64,000 nt of DNA from Sedimentisphaerales bacterium (GTDB taxonomy: Bacteria; Planctomycetota; Phycisphaerae; Sedimentisphaerales; Anaerobacaceae): assembly GCA_016936075.1 (NCBI GenBank), contig JAFGPS010000115.1:16209-80208 (forward strand). Direction: 5' to 3'. Positions 32,925 to 60,500 of this stretch are shown here, piece after piece (positions within the stretch are counted from its first letter, which is position 1; every line of letters begins with the position of its first letter). Position numbers and translations under genes: made by a program. A model generated the notes under the pieces. That model did no database searches and had not been told where the DNA came from. It worked only from the letters and a program-made list of their open reading frames with translations.

Positions 32925-33018
32925 GGGTGGCAGCCTCAAACGCAGTTTGGGGATGGTTAATTGTTGTGAATGTTCCATCCCCATCCTGATAAAGAAAATC
33001 AGGATGAGGCTGCCACCC
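32925..33018. repeat. Branched (cloverleaf-like) palindromic intergenic repeat
   Basis: Outer arms GGGTGGCAGCCTCA/TGAGGCTGCCACCC; inner AAAC-gca-GTTT, GGGGATGG...CCATCCCC, ATCCTGAT...ATCAGGAT. Confidence 0.9.
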
Positions 33019-33079: not shown

Positions 33080-33796
33080 TTAATAATAATCTATATTGAT
33101 TGAGTGGGGGAGTTTGTTTAGGGGGCATTGGTCGCATTTTGGTTTGGGTTTGCAGTATAGATATCCTGCCCGGACAATTAATGCGTGGAACTCGTTATAT
33201 AATTGGCATGTGTTTGTAGCATGGCCATCCTGGCCATGCAAGCATGGGCTGGAAGCCCATGCCACGTTCGATTCGAATAAGTCTCTTAATTGCTCGTAAT
33301 CGGCTTCCGGGTCTGAGAGGTGGTGTCTTTGGGTTATCCGGTTGGTATAAGCGTCTATAACGAAGACAGGGCGTTCTAAAGCGTATAGGAGAATGGAGTC
33401 GGCAGTTTCGCGGCCGACGCCGTTGATGGAAAGCAATTCCTCCCTGAGTCGGTTTGTGTTTACGTCTTCAAGTAATTTGAAATCGCCGGAATAATCGTTT
33501 ATGAACCAGTTTATAAAGTTCTTTAGCCGCTTTGTTTTTATGTTGTAATAGCCTGCCGGCTTGATAAGTTCCGCTAAGCGTTCGTTTGGGAGTTCGAATA
33601 GTTTTTCTGCTGAAAGGCAATCGGCATTTTGCAGGTTGGTTATCGCTTTTTTGACGTTGGACCAGCTTGTGTTTTGTGTGAGAATGGCGCCGACCGCAAT
33701 TTCAATTTGCGTTTCTCCCGGCCACCAGTATTGAGGTCCGAACGCTTCGTATAAAAGCTGGTAGATTTCTAATAATTTTTCACTTGTCTGTGACAT
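33080..33796 (-). CDS. Endonuclease III-like HhH-GPD glycosylase with Fe-S loop
   Basis: AVGAILTQNTSWSNVKKAITNL; LLSINGVGRETADSILLYAL; CKPKPKCDQCPLN. Confidence 0.88.
   Translation of the reverse strand: MSQTSEKLLEIYQLLYEAFGPQYWWPGETQIEIAVGAILTQNTSWSNVKKAITNLQNADCLSAEKLFELPNERLAELIKPAGYYNIKTKRLKNFINWFINDYSGDFKLLEDVNTNRLREELLSINGVGRETADSILLYALERPVFVIDAYTNRITQRHHLSDPEADYEQLRDLFESNVAWASSPCLHGQDGHATNTCQLYNEFHALIVRAGYLYCKPKPKCDQCPLNKLPHSINIDYY
33219..33262. repeat. Tandem hairpin element inside the endonuclease III-like gene
   Basis: GCATGGCCA tcc TGGCCATGC + aa + GCATGGGCT gga AGCCCATGC; translated as VAWASSPCLHGQDGHAT. Confidence 0.92.
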
Positions 33797-33851
33797 AATT
33801 CAAAAAAACTGGATTCCTGTTCATGCAAATTTATTAAATATATTCGGTATA

Positions 33852-34041
33852 GCCATCCCCAAGCGTCGCTTGAGGCTGCCACCCTTGACTATAAAGTTAT
33901 TATTTTTAAAGCGACTCATAATGGTACGAATCTGTCACCCTTGACTATAAGTAAGTAATTATATCGAAAGAAGCTTACTTTGGGAAGAGGCTGCCACCCT
34001 AAACATCAAGTTGATTATATCGAAAGAAGCTCTTGTTGGGA
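33852..34041. repeat. Cluster of partial GGCTGCCACCC repeat copies and a duplicated 3' gene end
   Basis: ccatccccaagcgtcgcttgaggctgccaccc; cacccttgactataa twice; attatatcgaaagaagct...gggaag at about 33959 and 34012. Confidence 0.65.
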
Positions 34042-57516: not shown

Positions 57517-60500
57517 TTAATAAAGGCTTTCCATTTCACCTAAAGTTTTAGCTTCGCTCTCTTCCTGTAAAATGATAATTGGCTTAACCAGTACTAATAC
57601 TATTTTCTGGTCCTTGACGTAAGAACGATTGCTGAATAACCTGTTAATAATCGGAATTTTGCTTAAAATAGGTACACCGGCTTCTTTTTCCGCTTCCTGA
57701 CTCATTTTCTGGCCGCCTAATAACAAAGTTCCGCAATCAGGAACACTAACACGAGTTGAAACAGTTGACGTTGAAGTTTCTGGTTGTTCTGCTCTGAATT
57801 CTGAAATGGTACCATCATCAGCAATATAATCAACTGCAAATTTATGAATTCTTAAAAGTTCCACAATTGAAAATTGAATGTTCAGGATAACATACTTCTT
57901 GTCATGTGAAATAATCGGTTGAACACTCAAAGGGGCTTGTGGTGGATCCTCTACTTCTTGTACTTCTACCTCCACACTGGAAGTAGTAGATGAAGAATTG
58001 ATACCGGTTGGAGTAACTGTTGTCGAACGCGAAGGAGGAAGCATATAATATAGTCTTTCGCGCGTTTCAAATGATGCCATTTCTCCGTTTAGAACAGTCA
58101 CTCTTGGTGCATTCAGCGTTTTTATATCAGTACGAGCTTGAGTTGCGCGAACCAGGAACGATACCTGCAAATCGTCGAGAATAGTACCATAACCACCTGC
58201 AACGCCCATGGAAGCACCAATTGTTCCAAGACTACCTGTAATACCTGAAGCTTCGGGTTGAGCTGATACAAAACTACCTTGCTGGGTTTCGATCTGACCC
58301 CACTTTCCGCCTGCATTAAGTGTGAAATCCAAATCAAGTCCGACATCATTGAGCCAGTTCTCGGTTACACTAAGGAATCTTAATTCTATCGATACCTGTT
58401 CCCCAAGTCCCTGTCGCATTGATTCCAGGAATTTTTCGATTTTAGCATGAACTTCAGGTGTATTTGTAACAGCCAGTTTTTTAGGTGAAGCTTGTGGGTA
58501 TGCATACATAGTACCATCTGCTTCTTCGTCCATTTCATACCATGAGTCCGGTTCGATGAGTTCCATAACCAGGTTTATAAGTTCCTGGCTTGTGTTTCCG
58601 CCCATCATACTGCTTCCGCCATATCCGCCCATCATACTGCTTCCACCGTATCCACCCATCATACTGCTTCCACCGTATCCGCCCATCATACTGCTTCCGC
58701 CGTATCCGCCATAGCTGCTTCCGCCATAGCTGCTTCCGCCATAGCTGCTTCCGCCATATCCGCCGCCAAGACCTGTATTACCGTAGCTGCTTCCGCCGTA
58801 GCCACCCATCATACTGCTTCCGCCGTATCCGCCCATCATACTGCTGCCGCCGTAGCCGCCCATCATACTGCTTCCGCCATAACCGCCCATCATGCCGCCC
58901 ATCATACCGCCGCCCATCATACCGCCCATCATACCGCCCATCATGCCTCCTCCTCCCATAGAAGGCATACCAACTAGGTCGGCGATATCGTAAGTACGTT
59001 GAACTAAATTACTTGGAAGTGCGTCTTCTGTAGCTATTAATATAACACCTTCACGGACTACATATCCAATTGGAAGGTCAGTAGTAGAAAGACCTGATAG
59101 TAAAACTTCAAGGGCCGCCTTAAGTTTCACGTTTGTTAAAGGACCCATCTCAGCAGGGGTTGTCGGTTGTATATCGGGTAAATCCGCCAAATCACGCCAG
59201 TTAGGCTGTATTTGCAGAGGAGGTTCTACCGCATTTTTGATTTCATTCAAAACTTCTTCAAAAGACATTAGAGGATCTAAGCTTGATAAATCAACAATTT
59301 CATCCAATTGTTTATAAACAGCTTCTTCTCTTTCATCTATGCCATAAGGCCTTTCCGGTTGTCTTGTTTTCATATTTGATAATTGTCGCCAATTTGTGGG
59401 ATAGGTAACTATATCTGCATATGGAATTCTGGCTTCATCACCCTGTAAAAGGATATCTGCGTGCTGTTTACGCATTTCATTCTCGAGTTCGATTTGTCTC
59501 TTGAAGTATCTCCTGTCTTCAACATCTTGTTTTTTATTCAAAGCCCAGTCATTTCTTGGGTCGATTTCAAGCAGATTTTCCAATTGGCCAAGTGCCGCGT
59601 CATAATTTTCAAGCTTAATATTTTCTGTTGTGCCGGCCTTTAATTCTTTAATTCTTTGATTCTTTTCATCATCCCTTCGTTTTCTTAGAAGCTCCTGCTC
59701 CTTCAATGCCTGGATATTTTGTGTTTCCTGGTCTTGTTGAGACTGTATCTGCTCCTGATTGCTTATATGATCATTAAGAGCCTTCAGTTGTATCTGATAT
59801 TTCGAGTAAACTTCATCTCCAAGTTCCATTTGATACTGGTCGACAAAAATCTGTGTCTTCTGTACTTCAAATTTAGCAAGATCAAATTTTCCCTCGCTAA
59901 TATAACTATTAACTTTAACTACAGACTCAGCATTAAGAGCTTTGATATATTCTCTTATTATATTTCTTTCTTTAACAACTAAGTCGAGATAGCTTTCGTC
60001 CTGTTCTGTTGTTGCACCAGGTTCACTACCCATAACCTGTGGCTGAATAATCCTGTTATCCGCAGATTCAGAAGCAGCCGATGAAAGCAGATTTTGATTG
60101 GTTGTTGAGTATAAACCTTTGGTTTTAGCCAGAATTTTATCAATATCGTCTATTTTGCTTCGTATATATTCCGACATTTCAGATGGGATTGTCCCGCTGT
60201 TCAATACCAGTATATAGCCTTCTTTTGCTTTTTCATATTGACCATTGCTTTCATAAGCTTTGCTCTGCTGAAAAATTGAATTATATATCTCAGCATTATT
60301 ATTATTAGTAACTGTATTCTGGGGAGTCTGTAATGGTGTTGATGATTGTACCGGTTTTACCAGAGATGACGGTTTTGTGGTAGAATCAGATGTTTGCAGG
60401 CTTGGGCCGTTTAAAGTTATGCGAGTATTAATTTCCTTAAGGGAATTGATAGTTTCGGCTCTCTCTATTTGCGGAAGGAACTCGTTCTTTTGAATTGATT

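Follow-up and report, generated by a model that had tools for sequence, protein, structure and literature searches.

A 50 nt segment within a DNA glycosylase gene of this planctomycete is in all likelihood a non-autonomous mobile doublet of REP sequences, of the REPIN type, which was inserted into the gene, is tolerated there in frame as a disordered loop of the protein, and is linked to a RAYT transposase. As an intragenic REP, the glycosylase insertion is one more instance of a known phenomenon; the new part is the RAYT, which lies embedded in the valyl-tRNA synthetase gene (valS) and is read through there, an unusual arrangement. We give even chances to the broader proposal that a transposase persists here as an in-frame domain of an essential enzyme, under which a stopless, REP-ended RAYT is translated within the sole valS, has arrived in this region of codons on more than one occasion and provides the activity that spreads translatable REP doublets to further essential genes.

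The palindromic element and its host gene

Two perfect 9 bp hairpins with 3 nt loops, at positions 33219–33239 and 33242–33262, lie in frame within the glycosylase ORF (Table 1), and the window has no other perfect 9/3/9 palindrome; by the window we mean the whole 64 kb stretch of DNA that was analysed. On the forward strand of the window the second hairpin reads GCATGGGCT-GGA-AGCCCATGC; AA separates the two hairpins, and the triplets GTA (33216–33218) and CAC (33263–33265) form the outer ends of the element. Translation of the minus strand gives VAWASSPCLHGQDGHAT, corresponding to the 17 residues V178–T194 of the 238-residue glycosylase. Folded as ssDNA, either strand forms two separate hairpins (−21.6 kcal/mol; z = −5.5 and −6.0), and an Rfam scan of the whole window matched no family. 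The initial annotation had described two adjacent hairpins inside an ORF, and their sequence, coordinates and translation were all borne out; the span that it assigned, 33205–33272, covers the element and is a little too wide.

Table 1. Coordinates of the element, its host gene and the valS-embedded RAYT (window positions unless a locus is named)
Feature	Position	Strand	Description or basis
REP doublet (REPIN-type element)	33216–33265, 50 nt	no strand	GTA-hairpin-AA-hairpin-CAC
Tagged hairpin 1	33216–33239	+	GTA + GCATGGCCA-TCC-TGGCCATGC
Tagged hairpin 2	33242–33265	−	from its tag: GTG + GCATGGGCT-TCC-AGCCCATGC
HhH-GPD DNA glycosylase ORF, MagIII/endonuclease III type, 238 aa	33080–33796	−	family and structure matches
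Fe-S type cysteine motif C-X5-C-X2-C (Cys215, Cys221, Cys224)	33125–33154	−	orthologue alignment
valS with in-frame RAYT and flanking REP hairpins	L212:259–4062 (G000 contig C51)	−	open frame, 1267 codons

The top family and structure matches of the glycosylase are MagIII/3-methyladenine glycosylase and endonuclease III, and the best structural match to its AlphaFold model is MagIII 1pu7 (1pu7/1pu6). In the protein the insert is followed by a helix and then by the Fe-S type cysteine motif. After Cys-X5-Cys-X2-Cys (window 33104–33154), a conserved LPH stands where the fourth Fe-S cysteine would be expected, a substitution common to most relatives of the glycosylase in the order.

Residues 181–192 of the model have a pLDDT below 50 and are flanked by helices 166–180 and 195–213, and the insert is thus predicted to be a disordered surface loop. 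The dN/dS ratio of the insert is 0.68 versus 0.03–0.12 in the adjoining flanks, a rough estimate given that it covers 17 codons, and the peptide thus evolves nearly neutrally. The 17 extra amino acids are probably harmless. A tolerated surface loop ahead of the Fe-S motif had been proposed from the sequence, and this agrees with the model, in which the segment is a loop of low confidence joining two helices.

The window holds other repeats as well. Inverted copies of a second dispersed repeat (GGGTGGCAGCCTC...) lie on either side of the glycosylase gene (32925–32959, 33006–33018, 33850–33884 and 33987–33999), and ten copies of it were present among the loci fetched from the same genome. Between about 40000 and 58900 there are long degenerate short-repeat stretches of the CCGCCGTTACC and GGATCATTAGGATC types, as in large repetitive proteins, and a 27 nt tandem repeat occupies 58556–58941 within this region.

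The glycosylase site in relatives

Among named orthologues, drawn from diverse phyla, 15 of 16 lack the insert and show continuous sequence at the site (FESNLPQDTQLFNEYH), and so do nearly all aligned relatives in the order; the site is also empty in the same-genus genome G002. The alignment therefore provides the insert-free versions implied by the in-frame insertion that the initial annotation had put forward, and no orthologue was found with the same residues but without the DNA palindrome. Relative to the empty site the net gain is 45 nt, the element itself being 50 nt long; the insert survived because this gain kept the frame and fell in the disordered loop between two helices.

A second same-genus genome, G001, carries an insert of equal length at the same codon. 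It too is a tagged REP, with the stem TCGCGGGCA, the prevailing REP type of that genome; its first stem is perfect and its second hairpin has decayed. The simplest reading is that the two inserts descend from one ancestral insertion whose stem changed later, and this is not fully distinguishable from two insertions at one spot. At the codon position of the REP doublet the orthologue in genome G012 (L099) carries another, unrelated insert that is also in frame (NPVRSVASNGKNQ...AASNG), an observation that supports a tolerant loop.

A dispersed repeat family

In the window's genome (G000, a 4.36 Mb draft) the stems of hairpins 1 and 2 have 11 and 10 exact matches, respectively; with backward-pattern controls there were 2 matches per strand when 3 mismatches were allowed and 0 when 2 were allowed. 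A 71 nt query found about 34 genomic places, both intergenic and intragenic, as expected of the dispersed repeat that had been predicted and contrary to the possibility, raised with that prediction, that no other copies would exist. The usual form is GTR-[21 nt hairpin]-1 or 2 nt-[21 nt hairpin]-YAC, an inverted pair of tagged hairpins 49–50 nt long, and such inverted doublets make up the majority of copies. All 54 tagged hairpins have the GTR tag by design, as it was part of the search pattern; at the fourth position of the tag 33 have G, 17 have T, three have A and one has C. Read from the tags, the loop is TCC or TCT in 52 of the 54, and the element therefore has polarity. Across 294 genomes of the phylum the exact second hairpin occurred in the window's genome only, and REPs were therefore counted across genomes with a degenerate tagged pattern.

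By manual count there are roughly 26 doublets, of which eight are read in frame as protein. The ORFs concerned encode the glycosylase, MurE, PurL, HypF, AroA, GltD (the small subunit of glutamate synthase), an HAD hydrolase and a protein without a family match; MurE, PurL, HypF, AroA and the glutamate synthase small subunit each exceeded the threshold of one or more NCBIfam models. A subtilase ORF carries a single hairpin. At six of the seven other in-frame doublets the site is empty in the same-genus genomes G001 and G002, and the insert lies between well-aligned blocks. The net DNA gains at these six sites (48, 45, 51, 39, 63 and 54 nt) are all multiples of three, for which selection for the reading frame would be the simple explanation. 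Stop codons are rare in the element, three to six of the six frames being open across the eight in-frame cases. At most sites the net gain differs from the 49–50 nt length of the element, so target bases were lost or gained, either because insertion was not clean or because the sites changed afterwards.

A RAYT embedded in valS

Although the genome has 11 matches to Y1 transposases, hairpins of the element flank just one of them, and this one lies within valS (Table 1). Valyl-tRNA synthetase sequence is present on both sides of the RAYT, with the HIGH-type and KMSKS motifs, and no further locus scored above the valS cut-off among the matches listed, making this the sole valyl-tRNA synthetase of the genome. 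The inserted part is identified as a RAYT by a match above the cut-off to PF01797 and a match to the TnpA-REP structure 4er8 (E = 3e-7); its NF047646 score, 77.6 bits, is slightly below the cut-off of 80. The PNHVH (HUH) and tyrosine motifs are conserved across the aligned embedded RAYT copies. An intein at this position was rejected, as no Hint domain was present and the insert matched just the Y1_Tnp and REP_Tyr_transpos models. In relatives that lack the RAYT the valS site is a short turn (for example VEIDGKETEHVTVATTRPET), equivalent to about residues 205–209 of Thermus ValRS 1gax. Because the reading frame of the RAYT runs on uninterrupted into valS at either end, the RAYT is a predicted inserted domain of ValRS, and we infer that it is made as such. 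Our search of the open literature, with subscription papers outside its reach, yielded no description of an aminoacyl-tRNA synthetase with a transposase translated within it.

The arrangement recurs in the order. Of its 161 genomes, 26 had a match in the RAYT search, and in 18 the RAYT occupies one and the same site within valS; some of these copies are cut by contig ends, and none contains an internal stop. Three other close RAYTs also lie in frame within ORFs: L287 (NAD+ synthase-like, by eye), L173 (helicase/methyltransferase-like, by eye) and L280. More distant members, at about 40 % identity, are mostly free-standing ORFs. The dN/dS ratios of the embedded RAYTs are 0.05–0.12, with dS near saturation and one saturated value (−1) excluded, and indicate purifying selection. 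In genome G001 the valS-RAYT is split over the end of contig C166 and the start of contig C81 at a tandem REP array (ESRGQDARDTDEK repeats), which fits an assembly break since the array is a repeat.

The relationships of the RAYTs are discordant with those of valS: G000 and G009 are 83 % identical in valS and 60 % in RAYT, and G000 and G012 are 70 % identical in valS and 74 % in RAYT. A single gain in valS followed by vertical descent is not favoured, as it disagrees with these identities and with the four to five changes on the valS tree, although the support of the valS and RAYT trees is weak in places. Repeated precise loss combined with exchange between species might also account for the distribution.

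Proposed movement of the element and alternative explanations

We propose that the RAYT acts in trans, where it would cut single-stranded REP hairpins beside the GTR tag and so move doublets, and that selection would afterwards purge copies that break genes. The valS-embedded RAYT is the most likely mover, to judge from its flanking hairpins. The strongest competing explanation, which we nevertheless consider unlikely, is that the doublets are REP-like but were spread by another Y1/HUH transposase, by recombination or by replication slippage. The other Y1 matches in the genome offer candidates, the net insert lengths are irregular, and, of the 53 genomes in which no embedded RAYT was detected, seven nonetheless have at least 15 REPs. 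Against this stand the restriction of the element's hairpins to the valS locus among the 11 and the way in which REP number tracks the embedded RAYT. Where a genome has a RAYT embedded in frame (in valS in seven cases, in another ORF in one), the mean is 43 REPs, compared with 5 in the other genomes (p = 8e-6), and the association is also seen within the family (p = 2e-4), with the kinship of the genomes making both p values too small. Furthermore, the hairpins beside the RAYT in G001 belong to the type that makes up most of the REPs there. Among the seven REP-rich genomes that lack a detected embedded RAYT is G032 (L205, contig C93), with 47 REP matches and no RAYT found; a string of N interrupts its valS at the RAYT site, and its RAYT may be hidden in this gap.

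Compared with RAYT-driven movement, it is very improbable that the hairpin is kept for a role at the RNA level, such as mRNA stability, pausing or control of termination, with translation as a side effect. The stems do covary: in a set of 22 distinct hairpins, standard pairs fill 99 % of the stem pair cells, and both sides vary at five of the nine pairs. However, template switching in palindromes (palindrome correction) can yield paired changes without selection, and paired changes alone are therefore no proof of it. The copies lie in unrelated genes at varied positions, the loop sequence tracks the tagged strand with both orientations present in every doublet, and the second hairpin of the G001 glycosylase insert has decayed, all of which argue against an RNA role, even though such roles have been proposed for REPs elsewhere (PMC3733652).

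It is less probable still that a planctomycete acquired a genuine Rickettsia palindromic element (RPE). The initial annotation had likened the segment to RPEs, and the likeness holds for behaviour, both being selfish palindromic repeats that are translated in frame in many conserved proteins. It does not extend to kinship: RPE-4 and RPE-6 are CGTC-tagged, and RPE-1 is longer (PMC3733652), whereas the tags here are GTG and GTA; RPEs have Rickettsia hosts and no known dedicated transposase, whereas the present host is a planctomycete whose nearest named genome is the Sedimentisphaerales MAG JAFGEF01, versions of the element occur in relatives throughout the order, and a matching, hairpin-flanked RAYT is present in the genome. 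A Rickettsia element by tag or host was accordingly rejected, with the two kinds set apart by their described features rather than by their sequences. An ordinary family-specific glycosylase loop with palindromes arising by chance, for which the equal-length insert of G001 might have spoken, can be counted as already refuted, given that first-order Markov simulations produced 0.42 single 9/3/9 palindromes per window and adjacent pairs in 0 of 200 runs, that about 34 places in the genome carry the same DNA, which is also translated in unrelated proteins, and that the G001 insert is itself a tagged REP with a perfect first stem.

Relation to known REP systems

By most of the features tested, the element belongs to the REP/REPIN kind, whose tags are GTAG or GTGG, rather than to the RPEs; it departs from that kind in the less strict fourth base of its tag and in its very short spacer. 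Its 21 nt hairpins and tag fall within the short dispersed palindromes (about 20–40 nt) of REPs, the genome's RAYT has these repeats on either side of it in inverted orientation, and the valS insert shows the Y1 HUH motif together with the catalytic tyrosine that marks REP-associated transposases. REPs of the GTAG superfamily include intragenic copies, dimers spaced by 1–2 bp and a GTGG variant in a PVC bacterium, and often hit DNA repair genes (PMC3733652). The REPs of that bacterium, Opitutus terrae (Di Nocera et al. 2013, PMC3733652), resemble the present family in their tagged hairpins, GTGG variant, inverted dimers 1–2 bp apart and many copies in ORFs, including those of DNA repair genes, and differ in stem and loop sequences and in copy number, the fourth tag base here often being T. 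To that description the present family adds demonstrated empty sites and a matching embedded RAYT.

In Pseudomonas fluorescens, REP doublets form a mobile, RAYT-linked unit whose presence is polymorphic among relatives (Bertels and Rainey 2011, PMC3116915), and the present elements are likewise two inverted REPs that are present or absent as one RAYT-linked unit. The spacer here is 1–2 nt, in contrast to unit spacings of 71 and 110 bp in P. fluorescens, and the REPINs of that species are extragenic, whereas the present family also occurs inside ORFs (PMC3116915). The canonical REPIN fold, a single long hairpin, was not seen in the window copy, which folds as two separate hairpins and is for this reason classed as a REP doublet of the REPIN type, not a canonical REPIN.

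RAYTs flanked by inverted REPs (REPtrons) are known (Nunvar et al. 2010, PMC2817692), and the valS insert, a Y1 HUH transposase between inverted REPs, resembles such RAYT/TnpA-REP units. The Stenotrophomonas RAYT requires the correct loop strand on a perfect 8 bp stem with a 3 nt loop, a REP very similar in form to the hairpin of the window (PMC8266576). The RAYTs of these two studies (PMC2817692, PMC8266576) are separate genes, whereas the RAYT described here is open in frame in valS and has no stop of its own.

The repeat family accounts for recurrent peptides, such as HGQDAHAT and GFQPM, in the protein predictions of this group of bacteria. With one 50 nt mobile element present in eight ORFs and sister species that have empty sites, the system amounts to a clean natural experiment, one that reveals at which positions enzymes bear random loops and how strong the selection on the reading frame is. 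If the proposal for valS is true, a transposase within valyl-tRNA synthetase would represent a new mode of persistence that uses the expression of an indispensable gene, and any decay of the embedded RAYT that broke the frame would hurt the host too.
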